Assembly: GCA_014523665.1 (NCBI GenBank)
Contig: JAATVR010000725.1
Location: forward strand, 1-10,661
Source of the DNA: Nitrososphaerales archaeon TH526
GTDB taxonomy: Archaea; Thermoproteota; Nitrososphaeria; Nitrososphaerales; Nitrososphaeraceae
Length of the DNA: 10,661 bases
Direction: 5' to 3'
Shown here: positions 549 to 10,661 of the stretch, piece by piece
How positions within the stretch are numbered: position 1 is the stretch's first letter
Layout of the letters: the number at the start of each line of letters is the position of its first letter
The notes under the pieces: model-generated
Seen by the model: only the letters and a program-made list of their open reading frames with translations
Told to the model about the DNA's origin: nothing
Database searches by the model: none
Program-made: the position numbers and the translations under genes

Positions 549-1307
549 ATGGTGTTATGCCTATCGCTCCTCTTACTGTTGAACCTAATTGACAGCAATC
601 TGAGTATAAAGACGTCGGTGATTCCATACGCACACGCTCAGGCGACTACTTTTCCCTATTTTCCAAACCTCTACGATCCTTATTACTCCAATCAGCTCTC
701 TCCATGGTTTCCATCTATTCCCGCTATAGCATGTGGAGCAGGTCTATTCTCTTTTAACATTGAAGGACTTCCAGATAAAGGCGTAAACATTCCCATGAAT
801 GATGAAGAGTTGATGGCTCTGCAAATTCAATTGGATAAGGATAATTTAGGTTTGTTCTTTACCAGCGGTGATGACGTATCTGGAAAAATTCTTGTTGGGA
901 AAGACAACATCAAAACCAATCAAGGAGAAGATTTTGATGTAAAGAATCTGTTCAATAATTGTAGAACGCTAGCATTCAGTTCCACTGGTGATGTCAAAAT
1001 AAAGACACCTCTCTCCGCCACTCCTGCTTCTGATAAGGCTAATACCATTATCCTTCCGTCTCCTTTTTCGGGAAACAATATTTACAACCCTTATGGGCCA
1101 TACTATTCATCTTCGACAATGGGTTATCCTTATACATATCAAACAGCATCAAGCGGAGGCTGCAGTCCATCTTATCCAGACGTATGTATACGGGATCCTC
1201 CGCCTCAGTTAGCCTGTGGACAAGTTCCATATACTAACTTCAGAGTACTTCCCCCTGATCCACATAGATTCGACGAAAATATGGACGGCATAGGGTGTGA
1301 GAGGTGA
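549..1307 (+). CDS. secreted protein with C-terminal Excalibur-like calcium-binding motif
   Basis: This is a 252-residue protein with a hydrophobic N-terminus (residues 2-14, LLLLL core) and a probable signal-peptidase site after AHA at about 29-31, so it is probably exported. The middle (32-205) is not recognised; it is rich in Pro, Tyr, Ser and Gly near 170-205. The C-terminus (about 210-252) has Cys-containing segments PDVC and LACG, then HRFDENMDGIGCER at 240-252. This matches the Excalibur pattern DxDxDGxxCE, found in extracellular proteins and thought to bind calcium, with Asn in place of the second Asp. ATG 549 is the only usable start: an in-frame stop lies at 495-497 and no ATG, GTG or TTG lies between. 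Oddly, the n-region before the hydrophobic core has no Lys or Arg. The gene converges on the PsbP-like gene. Confidence 0.85.
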   Translation: MVLCLSLLLLLNLIDSNLSIKTSVIPYAHAQATTFPYFPNLYDPYYSNQLSPWFPSIPAIACGAGLFSFNIEGLPDKGVNIPMNDEELMALQIQLDKDNLGLFFTSGDDVSGKILVGKDNIKTNQGEDFDVKNLFNNCRTLAFSSTGDVKIKTPLSATPASDKANTIILPSPFSGNNIYNPYGPYYSSSTMGYPYTYQTASSGGCSPSYPDVCIRDPPPQLACGQVPYTNFRVLPPDPHRFDENMDGIGCER

Positions 1308-1365: not shown

Positions 1366-2094
1366 CTAGATAAACCGAAATGACTCGATGATTTTCTCTG
1401 CTATGGGCAGCATATTGGGAACATTTAAGGGCTGTGTATAGAAGTTCAACCGGTATAGTACACCGTCATGTATGACGAAAACATCAGAAGAAAATCCAAT
1501 CTGTACACCATCATCGCTCGTTATGGTGTCCAATCGCCAGGCATTAGTTTCATTTGAAATAACAATAGGACTGTCTTTGACATAAACGTGAGTAAGCTCA
1601 CCATAGAAATGGGAAAGAATGCCTCCCATCCAAGACTCCGATGGTGATGCTGTTGCGTTCTCAATCTTTGTAGTGTTGTACTTCTGGGAGGTAACATAAT
1701 CTCCTGCAGTTGGGGCGTACGTCTTCGCTTGCATGGTATTAGGATCCAGATAAGAAAAGGAGCTAGGGATACTGGCAGTCACTGAAAATCCAGTCCCTGT
1801 ATCGCTGTTTGCAGGGATTCGGTTAAACTCTTCGTTAGGTGGCCTTATGAAAATGAGTTGATTCTGAACTAGGATGGAAGGCTCTACCTGCCAATCTGCG
1901 GGAAAATCAAGGGCAATGCCATACAGCTCATTTGTATATGTAGTAAGGCCGGTACTTTGATTTGTTATTAAAGTTGCCATTGGAGCAGCAGGAGCAATGG
2001 TACCGAAAATTTCTGCGGCAGAGAATACAGACATTACTGAGGAAAGAGAGCACCATAGGCTAAGCGTAGCACTTAGGAGGAGCACCAGACTCAA
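1366..2094 (-). CDS. secreted PsbP-like domain protein
   Basis: This is a 242-residue protein. Residues 1-28 form a hydrophobic signal peptide with a plausible cleavage after FSA. From about 50 it reads TTYTNELYGIALDFPADW, the usual opening of the PsbP/Mog1-like fold (aromatic-x-N-x-x-Y-G-I-x-x-x-x-P-x-x-W). It ends in an amphipathic helix, LPIAEKIIESFRFI, also typical. In oxygenic phototrophs PsbP assists photosystem II; in ammonia-oxidising archaea related exported domains are common and their job is unknown. The start is TTG at 2092-2094. It is chosen because a TATA-like element lies 27 nt upstream (leaderless pattern) and no other start codon lies before the in-frame stop at 2149-2151. 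The open frame upstream contains a Lys, so an older, longer n-region is possible. Confidence 0.85.
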   Translation of the reverse strand: MSLVLLLSATLSLWCSLSSVMSVFSAAEIFGTIAPAAPMATLITNQSTGLTTYTNELYGIALDFPADWQVEPSILVQNQLIFIRPPNEEFNRIPANSDTGTGFSVTASIPSSFSYLDPNTMQAKTYAPTAGDYVTSQKYNTTKIENATASPSESWMGGILSHFYGELTHVYVKDSPIVISNETNAWRLDTITSDDGVQIGFSSDVFVIHDGVLYRLNFYTQPLNVPNMLPIAEKIIESFRFI

Positions 2095-2697: not shown

Positions 2698-2764
2698 TTA
2701 ATGAAATTATAGTATAACCATGCTGTAAAATAACCAATTCAACACCATTTCAAAACTCGATGGA

Positions 2765-2772
2765 TATATAAA
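2765..2772 (+). promoter_or_regulatory. strong TATA box (TATATAAA)
   Basis: TATATAAA is a good archaeal TATA element. Initiation would be expected near 2794; ATG 2783 lies 15 nt after its centre and a second in-frame ATG at 2810 lies about 42 nt after it. It probably served the coding-like tract at 2783-3042. Confidence 0.4.
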
Positions 2773-2782
2773 CAGAAACACA

Positions 2783-3042
2783 ATGGCCTTGCAAACACAA
2801 CCACCACCAATGAGCACTATCAGTGGTTCTTCCATCAAGTTACAGATAGTTTAACTCGATATTTCTGGCATCTCCGCTTTCATATTGAAAATTTTACGTG
2901 CTCATGAGGTTGCGAGTTACCACTTGACAACACAAGTGACTCAAGCAACTGACGGGACTCAAGGGATGTCCATCAAGGGGGGGTGTCTGTTTCTGCGACT
3001 TGGAAAAGCTCCAACAGCTTTGCGCTAGAACTATATCACTAA
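2783..3042 (+). pseudogene. coding-like tract with stops, function unknown
   Basis: From ATG 2783 the frame reads MALQTQPPPMSTISGSSIKL to TAA 2852-2854. It then reopens in the same frame for nearly 60 codons. After a G7 run (2977-2983) a neighbouring frame reads VSVSATWKSSNSFALELYH and ends at TAA 3040-3042. That neighbouring frame is also protein-like earlier (for example FFHQVTDSLTRYFWHLRF), so which frame was original cannot be settled by eye. The family is not recognised. The low stop density and upstream TATA box suggest a broken gene rather than plain spacer. Confidence 0.22.
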
Positions 3043-3103
3043 CTTTTTTTATTTTCCCGTTATTCCATTAGTTCATTTTGTCCGACTTTTCATTTTTTCA
3101 GTC
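3043..3103. other. T-rich spacer
   Basis: A T7 run at 3044-3050 and several T-rich stretches follow the coding-like tract. They could act as a U-tract terminator on the plus strand. No gene is seen. Confidence 0.3.
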
Positions 3104-3111
3104 TATATATA
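3104..3111 (+). promoter_or_regulatory. strong TATA box (TATATATA) with no obvious large gene
   Basis: TATATATA predicts a transcript starting near 3130-3135. The sequence after it can form a 7-bp stem (AATTTCA 3140-3146 with TGAAATT 3153-3159) and then has ATG 3166, which opens only 21 codons (MIHAADKSGFYGKCKYEVDP, ending at TAA). A small RNA, a micro-ORF or a decayed gene are all possible. Confidence 0.35.
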
Positions 3112-3229
3112 GTATGCCATATCGTTCAACTTTTTTTCAAATTTCATTTAGTTGAAATTAAGAGAATGATTCATGCAGCCGACAAATCTGGTTTCTATGG
3201 TAAATGCAAATACGAAGTTGATCCAATCT

Positions 3230-3544
3230 AAATAGACAGAGAATAAATTTGAAAATGAATGAATATATGAGTATATCAAAATAGACCCAGAGTTACCATA
3301 TCATCATCTAACTTGAAGCAAAACTTATGTGGACAGTCCACTGAACGATAATTGAATGTCCATAAGGCAAATTCATTTTGAAACTTTGTTCAATCAAGTT
3401 GTTTAGAATTATCAGTGCTGCAGACACTTGTTAAATCGAAGTCTTAGTAATTCTGGACGTCTTGTGGAGAAATTAAACTCCGAGACCAGATAGTCGAGTG
3501 ACTATGCATTATGTAAAGAAATAATATTGATGATTACTGTACTA
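3230..3544. other. intergenic, downstream of the zinc-finger gene
   Basis: No convincing gene. It contains TAGACAGA at 3233-3240, identical to the arm of the inverted repeat in the zinc-finger promoter, and a 13-bp dyad GTGGACAGTCCAC at 3329-3341. Confidence 0.4.
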
Positions 3545-3700
3545 CTATCCACCTTGTTTGTAATGCCATAATCTATAATCATTGAATTCGGGTGAACCGT
3601 ACTCTTTGATCTTTGACTTACGATCATGTACTTGTCTATGGATCTCCAATCTATACCATTCAGTGAAGATAGAACTACATCTATCACACTTATACTCCAT
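3545..3700 (-). CDS. 51-residue C2H2 zinc-finger protein
   Basis: ATG 3698-3700 opens 51 codons to TAG 3545-3547. Residues 5-25 carry one complete classical C2H2 finger: Cys5, Cys8, Phe12, Leu18, His21, His25, that is C-x2-C-x3-F-x5-L-x2-H-x3-H, spaced exactly as in the family consensus. Basic residues follow (DRKSKIK), then an aromatic and basic tail (DYRLWHYKQ). Such fingers bind zinc and usually DNA; single-finger mini-proteins are known in archaea and their viruses (for example AFV1p06). A TATA element lies about 24-26 nt upstream, giving a leaderless start, and it is enclosed by an inverted repeat, which suggests the product or another dimer controls this promoter. The overlapping GTG-initiated frame at 3502-3687 is a shadow. 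No gene partner is adjacent. A transcription regulator is inferred from the motif only. Confidence 0.7.
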   Translation of the reverse strand: MEYKCDRCSSIFTEWYRLEIHRQVHDRKSKIKEYGSPEFNDYRLWHYKQGG

Positions 3701-3710
3701 AAACTATGTA

Positions 3711-3738
3711 TAGACAGATATAATTATAAGTCTGTCTA
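3711..3738. promoter_or_regulatory. TATA box inside an 8-bp inverted repeat (likely operator, possibly bidirectional)
   Basis: TAGACAGA (3711-3718) and its perfect complement TCTGTCTA (3731-3738) flank TATAATTATA (3719-3728), itself a perfect palindrome. On the minus strand the TATA element lies about 24-26 nt before the zinc-finger ATG. On the plus strand the same element would start a transcript near 3750, just before ATG 3766. Arms flanking a TATA box are a classical arrangement for a repressor that blocks TBP/TFB. Confidence 0.55.
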
Positions 3739-3765
3739 CCTGACGATGTTGATTAGTTAATAGCT

Positions 3766-3813
3766 ATGAAAATAGTAATAGCAGCTGCTGTTATGTTCTT
3801 TTCAAGAAAATAG
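3766..3813 (+). CDS. possible 15-residue leader peptide
   Basis: ATG 3766 encodes MKIVIAAAVMFFSRK and stops at TAG 3811-3813, which lies inside the left arm of a hairpin. The peptide looks like the start of a signal peptide, or a leader ORF read before the hairpin. It is very short and could be chance; the support is its position between a possible promoter and a stable hairpin. Confidence 0.2.
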   Translation: MKIVIAAAVMFFSRK

Positions 3814-3848
3814 TAATAGTCTTACTATTCTCTTGCTCTTACTATTCT
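3768..3848 (+). repeat. direct and inverted repeat cluster with a 14-bp stem hairpin
   Basis: GAAAATAGTAATAG occurs twice (3768-3781 and 3806-3819) and CTTACTATTCT twice (3821-3831 and 3838-3848); the second motif is nearly the reverse complement of the first. The central copies form a hairpin: CAAGAAAATAGTAA (3803-3816) pairs with TTACTATTCTCTTG (3822-3835) with one mismatch and a 5-nt loop. The outer copies could form a larger alternative stem, so two competing folds are possible. Confidence 0.6.
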
Positions 3849-3849
3849 G

Positions 3850-4159
3850 CGTCAAGCTCGCCAGATTTGACATTTGTGTTATGCTCAATGAAATTCTAAA
3901 AAGATCTACTTATCATTTAAACTCAAACTAATAAAAAGAAAAGTTGGGGATTTCGGAACAGCTATTCAGTAGCAGATAAATGATGATGAGAATGATCCTT
4001 AGAATTTCTGACTATTACAATATATATTACTACAATATCTATCACAGCAAAAGTAACCTTGATAATAGAATCAGCAGCATCTTCTCTTCTACCTATACAA
4101 GATAGTTAGATGTGTTTGAATTTTAATTAGATTTACATCTACTTCCATCTAAATGAGGT
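3850..4159. other. AT-rich intergenic, no convincing gene
   Basis: A 41-codon frame from ATG 3980 to TAG 4103-4105 exists, but its composition (Tyr, Ser, Ile and Asn from AT-rich triplets) looks like random sequence. I see no promoter at the right distance. Confidence 0.4.
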
Positions 4160-4162
4160 AGA

Positions 4163-4178
4163 CAGTCGTCTTCGACTG
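4163..4178. repeat. small hairpin CAGTCG-TCTT-CGACTG
   Basis: A 6-bp perfect stem (4163-4168 with 4173-4178) with a 4-nt loop. It overlaps TAGACAG (4159-4165), which resembles the operator arm at 3711. Confidence 0.4.
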
Positions 4179-4359
4179 AGAAACAATAATCTCTTAATTT
4201 TACGACTTAGGTCATTGATGCTACAGAAGGGTTTACACAAAAGCGTGGAGCAGGCGAATCTTTACGTCTTATAAAATTGTCACAGCCATCACGTCTAACA
4301 TTACCTGGAAGGAGAGATAATCAGTAGCATAAAAACCCTAAGAAATAATAGGAAAAAAG
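4179..4359. other. intergenic with a start-less open tract
   Basis: On the plus strand 4211-4327 is open for 38 codons with protein-like composition (for example IDATEGFTQKRGAGESLRL) but has no ATG, GTG or TTG at its head and begins right after a stop. It may be a gene fragment; nothing further supports it. Confidence 0.25.
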
Positions 4360-4360
4360 T

Positions 4361-4366
4361 TATATA
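4361..4366 (+). promoter_or_regulatory. TATA box (TATATA) with purine-rich BRE
   Basis: TATATA is centred about 26 nt before ATG 4389 and preceded by an A/G-rich BRE-like stretch (GGAAAAAAG, 4351-4359). This is a good match to an archaeal promoter driving a leaderless message. Confidence 0.6.
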
Positions 4367-4388
4367 GTTGGGAGCTTCTGCGTGAAGC

Positions 4389-4505
4389 ATGGGAACATGG
4401 AAAATATCCCCTTATACCGCAGTAGTTCCAACCGATAAAGGTGATGTACTTCTGGATCAGCTTACACTCATAGTTCGATCTTCTTCTAATAACCTTTCTT
4501 CGTAA
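4389..4505 (+). CDS. 38-residue hypothetical protein, possibly a truncated gene
   Basis: ATG 4389 lies exactly where a leaderless start is expected from the TATA box at 4361-4366. The frame reads MGTWKISPYTAVVPTDKGDV, continues with LLDQLTLIVRSSS, and ends at TAA 4503-4505. Composition is protein-like. The same frame continues open past the TAA for another 16 codons (WLANPSNPVSLYISGS), so the product may once have been longer. I recognise no family. The strong promoter is the main reason to believe transcription starts here; whether the peptide is functional is open. Confidence 0.42.
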   Translation: MGTWKISPYTAVVPTDKGDVLLDQLTLIVRSSSNNLSS

Positions 4506-4595
4506 TGGCTTGCAAATCCTTCTAATCCTGTTTCTTTATATATTTCGGGCAGTTAGGCATAGTTGTATCTACATCCTCGGGATCAAGTGAAGCGA
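4506..4595. other. short intergenic before the PDKSE relic
   Basis: No gene seen. CCTCGG (4575-4580) can pair with CCGAGG (4609-4614), but the right arm lies in the coding relic, so this is probably incidental. Confidence 0.3.
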
Positions 4596-4643
4596 GGACC
4601 CGATAAGTCCGAGGTATACGAAATCATAAATGTAAGGCCATAG
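4596..4643 (+). pseudogene. relic of a paralogue of the 7719-8039 gene
   Basis: In frame from 4596 the sequence reads GPDKSEVYEIINVRP and stops at TAG 4641-4643. The intact gene at 7719-8039 reads NPDKSESYEIIREKQ in its middle. The DNA is also similar (CCNGATAANTCCGAG followed by GAAATCATAA in both). The flanks show no further clear similarity by eye, so this is a short surviving fragment of a second copy. Confidence 0.5.
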
Positions 4644-4732
4644 ATCTGGCTAAAAATTGTATTGATAAATTGTCAACCGGTATTATGAATCATAAAATCG
4701 TTCTAGTAGAGTAAATAAGGATCTTACTCGAA

Positions 4733-4740
4733 CTTATAAG
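4733..4740 (+). promoter_or_regulatory. TATA-like element (CTTATAAG) upstream of the CLCA-like operon
   Basis: CTTATAAG predicts initiation near 4763, giving a 5' leader of about 40 nt before ATG 4802. A leader is consistent with the SD sequence found there, unlike the leaderless genes elsewhere in the window. Confidence 0.4.
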
Positions 4741-4783
4741 CATGCTAAATAAAGGAAACTTCGAATTTGATAAAAAAAGTAAC

Positions 4784-4789
4784 AAGGAG
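4784..4789 (+). promoter_or_regulatory. Shine-Dalgarno AAGGAG for the small upstream ORF
   Basis: AAGGAG lies 12 nt before ATG 4802. The spacing is slightly long, but it is the only plausible ribosome binding site for that start. Confidence 0.4.
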
Positions 4790-4851
4790 TCATCATAGCA
4801 GATGAGCCGAATTCTGGAGAGCATCAGGAGGGGAGACGATATTGCTTATGG

Positions 4852-4893
4852 GATATGAGACATGGTTTACAAGATATGGGGCATGGTATGCAA
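4852..4893 (+). repeat. 21-bp imperfect tandem repeat (2 units)
   Basis: Units 4852-4872 and 4873-4893 match at 17 of 21 positions (GATATGxGxCATGGTxTxCAA). The period is a whole number of codons, fitting an internal duplication in the small upstream ORF. Confidence 0.6.
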
Positions 4894-4928
4894 ACAACCG
4901 CATGGGATCAGAAATTACATTAAACATT

Positions 4929-4934
4929 GGAGGT
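4929..4934 (+). promoter_or_regulatory. Shine-Dalgarno GGAGGT deciding the CLCA-like start
   Basis: GGAGGT is a full anti-SD match 10 nt before ATG 4945. It argues for ATG 4945 over the in-frame TTG at 4927, whose own codons overlap the SD. Confidence 0.7.
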
Positions 4935-4944
4935 AAACAATAAA

Positions 4945-7287
4945 ATGGGTTTAGGTCGATTTAAGAATGGAAAATTTGATCTAGTTGTTGTAGCAAATTT
5001 TGCTATGACATCAGATGATTGGACGGCATGGGAAAGAACTCACAAGAAAGCATCCGAGATTTTGTATAACTCTTCTGAGGGCCAGATGCAATTTGGAAAA
5101 ATATTCGTTTGTGACGATAGTATTGGTTTAGATGTTGCCGACTTTATACTCCACCCGGAGTCGGGGGATGATCCTAGCTACAGCTCTGGAACTACATTTG
5201 GAGCCTCTGGCGCTGCATTACATTTAATGCCATACGTAAGGACACATGGACCGTTAACGATCCTACACGAAATGGGTCATTATGTCTGGGGTTTAGACGA
5301 GGAGTATTCCACTGAAACAACTCATGATGATATTGATAAAGTGAATCCTGCACCGGATAAAAAAACCATACCGATAAAAAATGCGACTTGGTCAAACGAT
5401 GAATTGGTGACATTAAAAGCTGAAGCAATCCTCTATTTCCCCGATATGGAGAGACATACTGTAATCGCTAACACAGCAACCACCGTGACGGTAAATTCAG
5501 ATTTTTCGGACTTACCTACAAACTCTACAGAAGATATCGTATTATACCAATTCCCTGCTCATTGTTCAGATGTCACTGATTCGAATTACTGTATTATGGA
5601 AAAAAGTCGAGACGCCGCGGGCTACTTTGATGATTTGGGAAATTGGGTAAATGTTCCTCATCCTGTTACAGAATATTGTACTCTTAGTAATCATGATCCA
5701 GATGGTGATACTGCACAAGATTACTATCATGGGAAGTCTTGCTGGGAATCAATCGTAGAGCTTCCACTCTATTCTAGTTTGACATTTTCTGATCCTGCAA
5801 ATTCGGGTCCAATAACAGGTTCGCAAATCCCAGAATGGGTCATTCTTGATAAACAACCTCGCTTTGCTTTGGTCTTGGATCGCTCTTATTCGATGCATGA
5901 AGGAACTAAATTGGCTGACACAAAAAGCGGAGCGATATACTGGTTAGATTTTTGTATGGAATCTAATGACCAACTAGCAATAATATGGTATAATCAGAAT
6001 ATTAACACAATCCTCGATTTAACTGTCGCCAATAGCATACCTGACTTGAGTAACACAATCGCCGACATAAACGCACTGACCCCAGCCGGAAAAACCAATA
6101 TCAGAGACGGATTAAACGAAGCACTTGATCAGATAGAAAGCCTTGCATCGAGGGCAGCAACTCAAGTAACACTGCTTTTGACTGATGGTCTTCATAATAG
6201 ACCCATCGGGACGAAAGCAGGTGAGGTTATTCCAGACTTTCAGGAATCGGGAGTTCGTATTTATGCGATTGGCGTTGGAGATCAGTCTAGTGTTGATATG
6301 GATACCCTCGATGATCTTGCATTCGAAACAGGCGGGCGCTCTTATTCGGTCGGTGATAATGCTCAATTGGACATCCAAACGAGTATGGCTGAGATTAATT
6401 TAGAAGTTAGAGGGGGTATAATTACAACGCAGCCAATACTATTTCCAGATAGCCAAAGTGTACAAATGGTGGAAAAACACAGACGGCGTTCTTGCGAAGA
6501 AATCATCAAGATGTTAGAAGTCAACCCAACAAATATTATAGAAGACTTACAGGCATACACTGGATCGCTTAAGGACAGAATCAAACTCATTCCAGTACAA
6601 GTTGAAGAGCAATGCAGCAGGGTTTCATTTACTCTAATATATCCAAAAAATAATGATATTCATCTATGTCTGATAGACCCCAAAGGTAAACTTGTTAACA
6701 TGTATGAGCCGAATATTCACCATGTAATTCGCAAGTCCCTCCATGAATTTGCTATCGTAGAGCAACCAACTGGAGGACGTTGGCATATGTTAGCTTTTCG
6801 ATCCAAGCCTGGACCCAGTGTTACAGCAAGGGCCATAGCTGGAGGGGAGAACAAGCATTTACAGGCTTTTGGTGATGTCACAAGAAATCCAGCTTTTAGT
6901 ACCCCGGTCAGGATTTGGGCGTCTGCAAGATGGAAAGATGAACTTTCAAATCTACGAGTGACTGCGACGGTGATTTCTCCTAATGGTTCCAGGCAGCTCG
7001 TTGTATTAGACGACAATAAATACGATGAACCTAACAGTGGTCTATATGAGGGATATATTACTCCTCACACAGAAGGGAGGTATCGAGTTATTATTCGAAT
7101 TGAAAACAAAGGGAATGCAATTATCGCAGGTCCCAATAAAAGGTTATTGCATACAGATAAAGCGTTACTATCATCGAAAAGTATGGCATCTCCATTTGTT
7201 AGGTCAATAATATGCTACTTTGACTATGGTAAGAGGCCTCCTGTGAGAGATATTGATAAAGATTCTAAAGAGGACATCAAACTCTGA
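4945..7287 (+). CDS. CLCA-like zinc metalloprotease with VWA domain
   Basis: The protein has 780 residues from ATG 4945. Residues 9-110 resemble the CLCA N-terminal domain (KFDLVVVANF near 10). HEMGHYVWGLDEEY at 108-121 fits the CLCA (MEROPS M87) motif HExxHxxxGxx(D/E)E: His108, Glu109, His112, and Glu119 (or Asp118) as likely third ligand. A Cys segment follows: Cys207, Cys216 (YCIMEKS), Cys245 (EYCTLSNHD), Cys266 (KSCWESI), echoing CLCA's FCTxxNH and CxxxSTWExI. A VWA domain (about 305-475) has an intact MIDAS: Asp312-x-Ser314-x-Ser316, Thr384, Asp414. From about 490 there are beta-rich regions, ending near 650-720 in an Ig-like piece (TATVISPNGSRQLVVLDD, GRYRVII) like the one before CLCA's fibronectin domain, which is absent. 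Animal CLCAs are secreted, self-cleaving and modulate channels. Here there is no signal peptide or membrane segment, so location and target are open. Confidence 0.85.
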   Translation: MGLGRFKNGKFDLVVVANFAMTSDDWTAWERTHKKASEILYNSSEGQMQFGKIFVCDDSIGLDVADFILHPESGDDPSYSSGTTFGASGAALHLMPYVRTHGPLTILHEMGHYVWGLDEEYSTETTHDDIDKVNPAPDKKTIPIKNATWSNDELVTLKAEAILYFPDMERHTVIANTATTVTVNSDFSDLPTNSTEDIVLYQFPAHCSDVTDSNYCIMEKSRDAAGYFDDLGNWVNVPHPVTEYCTLSNHDPDGDTAQDYYHGKSCWESIVELPLYSSLTFSDPANSGPITGSQIPEWVILDKQPRFALVLDRSYSMHEGTKLADTKSGAIYWLDFCMESNDQLAIIWYNQNINTILDLTVANSIPDLSNTIADINALTPAGKTNIRDGLNEALDQIESLASRAATQVTLLLTDGLHNRPIGTKAGEVIPDFQESGVRIYAIGVGDQSSVDMDTLDDLAFETGGRSYSVGDNAQLDIQTSMAEINLEVRGGIITTQPILFPDSQSVQMVEKHRRRSCEEIIKMLEVNPTNIIEDLQAYTGSLKDRIKLIPVQVEEQCSRVSFTLIYPKNNDIHLCLIDPKGKLVNMYEPNIHHVIRKSLHEFAIVEQPTGGRWHMLAFRSKPGPSVTARAIAGGENKHLQAFGDVTRNPAFSTPVRIWASARWKDELSNLRVTATVISPNGSRQLVVLDDNKYDEPNSGLYEGYITPHTEGRYRVIIRIENKGNAIIAGPNKRLLHTDKALLSSKSMASPFVRSIICYFDYGKRPPVRDIDKDSKEDIKL

Positions 7288-8712: not shown

Positions 8713-9300
8713 ATGGTTAAGTGGTGTGCCGTGTCGTCCCATGCTGTACCTTTTATGCGAATAATCTACTTAATGATCGTAACGCTGGGTTTAATAGCTG
8801 CATCGGTAAAGATTGATAACTTCATTGATAAATATTTGTATCAAACTACAATTAGAGACAATGTATTTAGGTGGTTTCCACGTTGGGCATTGCCAGATAC
8901 TCCAATAAATAGCTCTCATGAAATATTTATTGAAAGATATAAAAGAAATAAGGGACCCTTAGATCTATTTGTTTCAACTTCAGTTTCTAAGAACCCAATT
9001 ACCGTTGGGGATGAGCAGACTGTGTCAATTTCAGCTTCTGACAGTAAAAGTGGAGAATTTGGGACGACTGTTTATGACGTCTCTATAGAAGGAAGAGTAA
9101 TAGATTCATCTGGAAAAACAGTTAAGAAATTTAATGATAATCCTGCTTATCCTGAAGGCCGGGCTATTGTTCTATACTCATGGGCATTAAGTACGAAATT
9201 AAAGCCGGGTGTTTTCAAAGTGATCATAGGTGCAAAGGCTCCGTATTTTAAATCAACATCAGCAACAACATCATTTGAAGTAGTACCAGTTAGATCCTAA
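8713..9300 (+). CDS. membrane-anchored protein with Ig-like domain
   Basis: This is a 195-residue protein. One hydrophobic segment (about 16-33, IIYLMIVTLGLIAASV) is an uncleaved anchor or signal. Residues about 80-192 look like a bacterial-type Ig fold: KNPITVGDEQTVSISASDS, then GRVIDSSGKTVKKF, then SWALSTKLKPGVFKVIIGA and TTSFEVVP at the end. This order (pre-strand, G-x-V-x-D-x-S-G, SW...KPGxFxV, SFEV) is common in exported archaeal surface proteins that stabilise or adhere. The domain would face outside the cell. ATG 8713 is preferred because of the TATA box at 8675; starting at 8755 would keep the membrane segment intact. The role beyond surface exposure is unknown. Confidence 0.8.
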   Translation: MVKWCAVSSHAVPFMRIIYLMIVTLGLIAASVKIDNFIDKYLYQTTIRDNVFRWFPRWALPDTPINSSHEIFIERYKRNKGPLDLFVSTSVSKNPITVGDEQTVSISASDSKSGEFGTTVYDVSIEGRVIDSSGKTVKKFNDNPAYPEGRAIVLYSWALSTKLKPGVFKVIIGAKAPYFKSTSATTSFEVVPVRS

Positions 9301-9997: not shown

Positions 9998-10537
9998 CTA
10001 AGATGTCGATCTTAATTTAGTAATTGAACATTGAGCGCTGATCTCATCTTCGGTATCTTGGAATTTAATTAATTTCTTTCTTAAACGATTTGCTTGCTTG
10101 AAGTCATAGTTAGCATTTGCGATTTCTATTGCTCGTGTTTCTGCACCATATTTCAGATCAGCCAAGCGCCCCAAAATACTCTCAAGAGTGTCTTTTTCAT
10201 TAATTAAAATGTCAGATTTGTGTAGATAATTATTCGAATCTTTTAGTTTCAAATTTAGCTCTTGAACTCGTTCTTGGACAGTGTTTTCAAACTCGATTGT
10301 CTCCATCATCTCTAAGCGCTTCTTGGTTATTGCAAGTTGTTGGCGCTCATCATTATCCCGGTTTAATATTGATTGGATGGTTCTTGTAGTCCATTGGAGA
10401 AACTCTATTTCATCGCGCCGATCAGCTATGTATAGCACATTCAGTTTCACGTTTGTTCCGATTTCTACTTCTTCTTTAAGAGCTCCAATCTTTTCATCTA
10501 CAATCTTTTGAAGCTCGACGAGTTTGTGTCTAGACAT
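9998..10537 (-). CDS. coiled-coil protein with C-terminal UVR-like motif
   Basis: From ATG 10535-10537 the product has 179 residues. Residues 1-60 are a mixed region (LVELQKIVDEKIGALKEEVE, LNVLYIADRRDEIEF). Residues about 62-125 are highly charged heptad-like helix (DERQQLAITKKRLEMMETIE, ERVQELNLKLKD), a probable coiled coil. Residues about 137-160 (EIANANYDFKQANRLRKKLI) match the spacing of the UVR motif of UvrB, UvrC and ClpC-type proteins (A-x4-DF-x2-A-x2-L-R-x2-I/L), a protein-interaction helix hairpin. There is no signal peptide. An upstream ATG (10645) would add 36 residues, but TTATATC at 10560-10566 lies 26 nt before ATG 10537, the leaderless pattern, and the extra residues do not look conserved. 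The UVR assignment is by eye only. Confidence 0.72.
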   Translation of the reverse strand: MSRHKLVELQKIVDEKIGALKEEVEIGTNVKLNVLYIADRRDEIEFLQWTTRTIQSILNRDNDERQQLAITKKRLEMMETIEFENTVQERVQELNLKLKDSNNYLHKSDILINEKDTLESILGRLADLKYGAETRAIEIANANYDFKQANRLRKKLIKFQDTEDEISAQCSITKLRSTS

Positions 10538-10559
10538 GAACCAATAACTCTCATTTGGC

Positions 10560-10566
10560 GATATAA
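10560..10566 (-). promoter_or_regulatory. TATA box of the coiled-coil gene
   Basis: The minus strand reads TTATATC centred near 10563, 26 nt before ATG 10537. It decides the shorter start. Confidence 0.5.
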
Positions 10567-10661
10567 TCAGTAACACACGATGAGAGCTGGGAGAGAGTAT
10601 GAGCCTATCGATGGTTATAGTCTGGCACACCGTACACTCTCCCATCTTATCTTATTCTGTG

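Follow-up and report, generated by a model that had tools for sequence, protein, structure and literature searches.

The gene and the architecture of its product

The window, meaning the whole stretch of 10,661 nucleotides that was analysed, is the forward strand of contig JAATVR010000725.1 from the genome of Nitrososphaerales archaeon TH526. It carries a gene for P0001, a protein in which a predicted metzincin-type domain is followed by a Cys segment, then a VWA domain, and last a region rich in beta structure. The features of the gene are as follows.

4929..4934 (+): ribosome-binding site GGAGGT, 10 nt before the ATG, read from the sequence
4945..7287 (+): gene for the leaderless metzincin-VWA-beta protein P0001, 780 aa, from the ORF, its translation and its relatives
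4945..4986 (+): N-terminal motif, Met followed by GLGRFKNGKFDL, whose Gly2 and Gly4 correspond to the mature N-terminus of secreted relatives
4945..5844 (+): predicted metzincin-type catalytic domain, residues 1-300, from the model, fold matches and sub-threshold CLCA and M64 profiles
5266..5307 (+): putative active-site motif HEMGHYVWGLDEEY, residues 108-121, from conservation, with roles by analogy with IgAse
5308..5562 (+): beta insert of about 80 residues, residues 122-206, from row comparison and the tree
5563..5742 (+): Cys segment, residues 207-266 (C207, C216-I-M218, C245, NHDPDGDTAQ, C266), from conservation and the IgAse analogy
5851..6414 (+): VWA domain with complete MIDAS, residues 303-490, from Pfam, the model and a residue check
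6580..7227 (+): C-terminal beta-rich region, residues 546-761, from the model and alignment to the secreted family

Read as an ORF, the frame is open from 4924, with the ATG at 4945 and the stop at 7287. The in-frame stop upstream of the ATG leaves 7 open codons, which upholds the view of the earlier note that P0001 has no signal peptide. Upstream of the gene, ORFs of at least 60 aa are almost absent from positions 2700-4920, some 2.2 kb in which GC is mostly low. Matches to bacterial-type promoters near the gene were at shuffle level (12 versus 10.6), and no Rfam family was found in the window. Judged by eye, the neighbouring ORFs at 549-1307 (+), 1366-2094 (-) and 8713-9300 (+) have hydrophobic N-termini and look exported; the ORF at 1366-2094 (-) has a weak, sub-threshold PsbP-like match.

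How much of P0001 is CLCA-like? The VWA models are the only Pfam models above cut-off in the protein (VWA 57.7 bits against a cut-off of 23.8, E 2.3e-15, residues 309-475), and the MIDAS is complete, with D312, S314, S316, T384 and D414 all present, as the earlier note had read it. The order of metalloprotease domain, Cys segment and VWA that the note ascribed to animal CLCA proteins is borne out by the NCBIfam vertebrate hCaCC model TIGR00868, which is collinear with P0001 from the Cys segment through the VWA domain (residues 239-476 against model positions 244-467, E 3.2e-15). TIGR00868 matches 59/59 rows of an alignment, A1, that holds 59 of the 118 search matches described below, always far below the model cut-off of 900.85 bits. 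A CLCA-like beta domain had also been claimed. The match of P0001 itself ends at residue 476, short of the beta region, and the likeness there is suggested instead by family-to-family alignment and by secreted relatives: leaderless A1 against the secreted alignment A3 gives an hhalign probability of 100 (E 1e-119, 624 columns), and the secreted protein P0241 scores 116 bits against the animal CLCA profile over model positions 245-680, that is, Cys segment, VWA and beta region. Among the secreted relatives, P0126 (28.1 bits) and P0296 (by its precomputed Pfam label) reach the Pfam CLCA threshold. As had been stated, there is no sign of the fibronectin tail: allowing E values up to 1, P0001 has no match to fn3. 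The link to CLCA is drawn through Pfam and NCBIfam profiles, not through named CLCA sequences.

Leaderless and secreted relatives

A protein search with P0001 gave 118 matches, P0001 included. Five were left out, P0113 for its disrupted sequence and P0115-P0118 as matching in the VWA domain only, and P0114 was moved to the secreted rows; the remaining 112, with P0151 from another search, make up the leaderless set of 113 rows. The first secreted set has 33 rows (P0114 and P0119-P0150), of which one lacks Gly2 and another, P0135, is an internal module without a leader. The second has 70 new rows, five of them without Gly2 or a complete start and excluded from the N-terminus count. P0152, which has no N-terminus, was set aside. 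Apart from P0114 and P0151, each row was assigned to its set according to the search in which it turned up, without regard to its N-terminus. Thirteen of the 113 leaderless rows are without the Gly2 residue, namely ten fragments and P0034, P0047 and P0066, whose start lies two residues later.

The family is scattered. Named sources of the protein matches include Actinomycetota, a Thorarchaeota fragment and Desulfosarcina. A scan of genome contigs with P0001 as a single query found no loci; with an alignment as query, 20 turned up across the wider family, some leaderless and some secreted, 19 of them bacterial and one from a Thermoplasmata archaeon. In one actinobacterial class the family occurs in 3/394 genomes. 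The earlier note had presented P0001 as an archaeal form without a secretion signal. The host is indeed archaeal, but the absence of a leader characterises the lineage as a whole, in which most named members are bacterial, and is not an archaeal peculiarity.

What precedes Gly2 differs between the two groups. Gly2 and Gly4 are invariant in an alignment of 18 N-domains. In the 100 leaderless rows that have Gly2, the residue before it is Met in 98, Val in one and Asn in one (P0050), and in 94 leaderless rows this single residue is all that precedes the glycine. In the first secreted set, all 32 rows with Gly2 have Ala (25) or Gly (7) before it, and in 31 of the 32 a hydrophobic N-terminal stretch comes first; 65 further secreted rows have Ala (59), Gly (5) or Pro (1), and 62 of them pass a hydropathy threshold of 1.6. 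As aligned, the secreted leaders end in Ala just before GxG, and the leaderless proteins begin with Met just before the same glycine; signal peptides were called here from hydropathy and from the residues ahead of the cleavage site rather than with a trained predictor.

Could leaders have been missed through misplaced starts? At the DNA level, the frame upstream of the start is closed within 16 codons in 8/12 leaderless loci, and a Shine-Dalgarno-like tetramer lies upstream in 9/12. Of the four loci with an open upstream frame, three are not hydrophobic there, and the fourth, L004, has a hydropathy of 1.69, just over the 1.6 threshold, with the last 40 residues before the Met rich in arginine. 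In P0041 (949 aa) an HTH_11 region lies upstream in the same frame; either two genes are fused there or the start may have been called too far upstream.

A tree of 94 rows, chosen for spread, needs one change between the leaderless and secreted states, on a branch with 99 by SH-aLRT; the method is a quick one and the tree unrooted. A second tree, from which three long rows were removed, agrees on the one change and is likewise unrooted. Because animal CLCA and IgAse are secreted, we take loss of the leader, not gain, to be the direction of the change.

It might be argued that P0001 works outside the cell all the same, leaving by lysis, in vesicles or through a dedicated machine without a Sec or Tat signal. 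The relatives whose biology is known, CLCA and the M64 IgAse, are described as secreted (PMC6851300, PMC12237041, PMC12402451), and some secreted sisters carry an RTX or T9SS-type sorting tail (P0146, P0148). The leaderless rows, however, have no leader, the upstream frame is mostly closed as just described, and leaderless loci hardly share any neighbouring genes. With mechanically called ORFs in loci L003-L022, flanking genes common to leaderless loci were found only between L010 and L011, close relatives whose family genes are 88% identical. Among ORFs farther out, single matches join L005 with L006 (more than 2 kb away), L009 with L015 and L016, L015 with L016 and L018, and L007 with the secreted-gene loci L014 and L016. 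We regard work outside the cell as unlikely, if the most serious of the alternatives. Composition says little on location: leaderless and secreted rows show no difference in extra cysteines (p 0.11), which thus lend no support to a cytosolic location, and the content of charged residues, 21.0% in leaderless and 17.9% in secreted rows, fits cytosol versus outside but is confounded by host composition.

The neighbours are too little conserved for a pathway to be named from context. In locus L003 the leaderless gene is followed downstream by an ORF of 101 aa and then by an M14 zinc carboxypeptidase (4907-6631), and the search that gave P0151 also gave five proteins with both M14 and VWA matches; together these hint at joint endo- and exopeptidase work. 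The N-terminus of the L003 carboxypeptidase has no evident signal peptide and looks leaderless too. In L010 and L011 (8001-9971) the leaderless copies, which lack HExxH, adjoin conserved genes of 944-960 aa and 562-571 aa; the L010 copies of both neighbours have no Pfam match at E 0.01.

The catalytic domain and its metal sites

The best-scoring Pfam family for the N-domain (residues 1-300) is CLCA, at 15.2 bits against a cut-off of 25.6; M64 follows with 13.3 bits against 26, so that both stay below threshold. Of the two profile searches proposed in the earlier note, the one with VWA models thus succeeded and the one with the CLCA model fell short. Sub-threshold matches at E up to 1 are found for CLCA in 38/59 aligned rows and for M64 in 34/59. 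The whole of P0001 gives E 0.18 with the CLCA profile, PF08434. In a PF08434 search of its own genome at E 10, the P0001 gene was not found and two controls scored under cut-off; in 14 genomes of relatives and 369 genomes of one class the same profile gave 0 matches, but the controls were silent there as well, and absence is not to be inferred from this result.

A search of the PDB with the whole model was filled by VWA domains, and the N-domain was therefore modelled alone. Foldseek placed first a phage tail-tip protein over 83 columns (E 4.9e-4), with two more phage proteins, and returned zincins at E 0.005-0.05 with query TM 0.2-0.3. Structure prediction, another check that had been suggested, accordingly gives a metzincin-type fold with a Met-turn, but with a best structural match elsewhere. 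M64 structures are not among the best 50 N-domain matches listed; other zincins fill the lists, so this is no evidence against M64.

The motif HEMGHYVWGLDEEY has H108, E109, H112 and EEY at 119-121 where the earlier note placed them, and agrees with the CLCA active-site pattern HExxHxxxGxxDEY save for Glu in place of Asp. By sequence order the M64 motif set is present too, with the same substitution: HExxHxxxGxxD followed by E and Y, then CIM, then Glu plus three Cys. In IgAse the catalytic site is reported as H539, H543 and D550 with the tyrosine Y552, the Met-turn as C606-I-M608 and the structural-zinc ligands as E551, C606, C616 and C619 (PMC12237041, PMC12402451). The order in P0001, H108, H112, E119, E120, Y121, C216-I-M218, C245, C266, is the same. 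By analogy, H108, H112 and E119 are proposed as ligands of a catalytic zinc, with E109 as the base and E120 as a ligand of a structural zinc, and Y121 is possibly a tyrosine switch. A second-zinc role for the Glu of the CLCA DEY had been proposed earlier (PMC3650047). From its CIM Met-turn, the order of its ligands and its predicted fold, the domain reads as a metzincin of the igalysin (M64)/CLCA (M87) type.

Invariant columns among the 59 rows of A1 include W29, H108, E109, H112, E120, C207, C216, C245, H250, C266, W267 and the MIDAS residues. In the 104 leaderless rows that cover them, P0001 included, H108, E109, H112 and E120 are kept in 104, 104, 103 and 104. The earlier note had remarked that the third zinc ligand appears to be Glu rather than Asp. 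Glu-119 is real and likely a ligand, but it is ordinary variation: leaderless rows have Glu in 65/104 and Asp in 39/104, the tree needs at least seven changes, and an Asp-to-Glu change at this ligand is reported for two M64 clusters (PMC12402451). Secreted rows have Asp throughout (33/33 and 70/70), and Glu occurs only in rows with the insert of about 80 residues (87 rows). That insert is present in 79/100 leaderless rows and in 0/31 secreted rows measured, and requires one change on the tree.

The four cysteines C207, C216, C245 and C266 are all kept in 106/106 leaderless rows covering them, and C207 is proposed, by analogy, as an alternative to C266 as structural-zinc ligand. Where secreted rows lack C216, C266 is also missing in 8/11 and 34/36 (the two sets), and where they have it, C266 is missing in 0/22 and 0/34, counts that reflect related sequences rather than independent events. 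In P0120, P0122, P0146, P0147 and other secreted relatives the Cys trio of the proposed structural-zinc site is replaced and HExxH and DEY stay. Met218 is kept in 107/108 leaderless rows, in 23/33 secreted rows (Ile in nine, Thr in one) and in 70/70 further secreted rows.

Is the domain a protease at all? It might be a non-catalytic scaffold or adaptor, with the VWA domain as the working part and the metzincin fold as a binding module. The two leaderless actinobacterial copies L010 and L011, which lie outside the 104-row set, read RHFAQYAYGVCDEF and have lost HExxH; they keep the Cys set, so that the catalytic and Cys sites can be lost apart. CLCA members with substituted active sites are also on record (PMC3650047). 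Against this, HExxH is complete in 103/104 leaderless rows, the exception, P0076, having an irregular sequence around the motif, and in 33/33 and 70/70 secreted rows; a non-catalytic role for P0001 seems to us quite improbable.

The host and the origin of the gene

The genome has 4.9 Mb in 833 contigs, with completeness 96.6 and contamination 5.26%. It contains an archaeal AmoA (E 3.4e-118), which makes the host an ammonia-oxidising archaeon. Does the contig belong to it? The gene at 9998-10645 (-) has 19 family matches in its own genome and 3, 11, 9 and 4 in four genus mates; outside the genus there was one weak match in 36 other genomes searched. It encodes a 215-aa protein, and many copies of the family have internal stops, giving it the look of a decaying repeated or mobile gene. 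This genus-specific repeat family ties the contig to the archaeal genome, and composition agrees. The tetranucleotide profile of the window correlates at 0.56 with 14 pooled stretches of the bin, compared with 0.28-0.54 for each of the 14 against the rest and 0.16-0.39 for seven foreign loci, although the correlation rises with length and the window, longer than most stretches, is favoured. The contig is most likely archaeal.

The gene is rare among its host's kin. A full-length copy is found in 1/70 genomes of the archaeon's family, probably Nitrososphaeraceae, and in 1/398 genomes of the phylum, in both cases the window's own; five more genomes of the family match in the VWA domain only. Two metagenomic proteins from the protein search are 85% and 80% identical to P0001. 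With one carrier in 70 family genomes the gene was probably acquired, and horizontal transfer is the simplest reading. That it is a bacterial contaminant of the archaeal bin, as the bin's contamination value, the lack of a full-length copy in four same-genus genomes and in 315 clean genomes of the phylum, and low correlations (0.28 for the gene alone against the pooled own stretches, 0.33 for the window against the AmoA contig) might suggest, is very improbable given the genus-specific repeat beside it and a window profile above all the foreign loci, with the same reservation as to length.

Proposed function

We propose that P0001 is probably a metzincin-clan zinc endopeptidase, guided by its MIDAS and active in the cytosol, from a lineage that lost its leader, and that the archaeon acquired the gene horizontally. 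The architecture, the conservation, the predicted fold, the lack of a leader, the single split between secreted and leaderless proteins and the rarity in the host's family come from the computations; zinc binding, activity, substrate, guidance by the MIDAS, Met removal, location, loss as the direction of the leader change and the transfer are inferred. A catalytic zinc would be held by H108, H112 and E119, with water activated by E109 and M218 as the Met-turn, and a second, structural zinc would sit on E120 with C216, C245 and C266 (or C207). The VWA MIDAS may bind a partner or the substrate and so aim the protease. In this lineage the signal peptide would have been lost at its cleavage site: once Met had been removed in the cytosol, the protein would begin with Gly-x-Gly, just as the secreted sister proteins do after cutting by signal peptidase. 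The protein would most likely act in the cytosol, and the gene would have reached the archaeon by horizontal transfer.

In astacins, the mature N-terminus belongs to the active fold. More tentatively, and at somewhat less than even odds in our estimation, the lineage may have moved from the cell surface to the cytosol with methionine aminopeptidase taking the place of signal peptidase, the free Gly-x-Gly being kept as part of the active fold. As the start codon here coincides with the mature N-terminus, the leaderless proteins offer a way to ask directly whether a free glycine at the N-terminus is important to proteases of this type.

CLCA proteins are medically studied, and their origin and protease role are debated. 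The present sequences, 113 leaderless rows and two secreted sets of 33 and 70, reveal a larger prokaryotic family whose scores lie between those of CLCA and M64 and one branch of which is leaderless. Provided that they are soluble, the leaderless proteins would make it easier to study the biochemistry of CLCA. Should the lineage indeed have moved into the cytosol, its bacterial and archaeal members would together form a group of metzincins that work there under MIDAS guidance. We found no account of the leaderless branch in the titles and abstracts shown by our searches of the open-licence PMC literature.

Comparison with known systems

CLCA proteins (PF08434, M87) share with P0001 the motif HExxHxxxGxx(D/E)EY, the Cys segment, the VWA domain with MIDAS and the beta region, in the same order. 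Unlike them, P0001 scores below the CLCA cut-off, begins without a signal peptide, has no fibronectin match, carries the extra 80-residue insert and has Glu in place of Asp. A survey of 2013 listed animal and about ten prokaryotic CLCA members, and argued for transfer from animals to the prokaryotes (PMC3650047).

The igalysins (M64, PF09471; T. ramosa IgAse and Bacteroides 3P1V) resemble P0001 in the metzincin motif with its extra residue before Gly and, by sequence, apparently also in the Glu and Tyr after the motif, the CIM Met-turn and a second site of Glu plus three Cys. P0001 lies below the M64 cut-off and differs in Cys spacing; IgAse, whose structures were published in 2025, has a signal peptide and continues from its catalytic domain into wrapping and beta domains, not a VWA domain (PMC12237041, PMC12402451). 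By score M64 is nearly as close as CLCA, and it is the solved template for both metal sites.

A third comparison is with CLCA_X, described as a prokaryotic zincin family clustered beside CLCA (PMC3650047), in which it is like the P0001 family. Its motif is given as HExxHxxxD, where P0001 has Gly116 (Asp in 9/104 leaderless rows), and it is reported as mostly linked to phages and plasmids; queries from the present family found no match with P0047 in plasmids, with P0001 in phages, or with A1 in viral contigs by pattern or tblastn.

Closest of all are the secreted prokaryotic CLCA-like VWA proteins (A3; P0126, P0241, P0296), which are homologous over nearly all of P0001 and have the same GxG. 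They differ in having a signal peptide, Asp as third ligand (103/103), a Cys set that is often lost, and no insert (31 measured). Since it stays below the CLCA and M64 cut-offs and lacks a signal peptide and a fibronectin match, P0001 is a variant related to both families and a member of neither.
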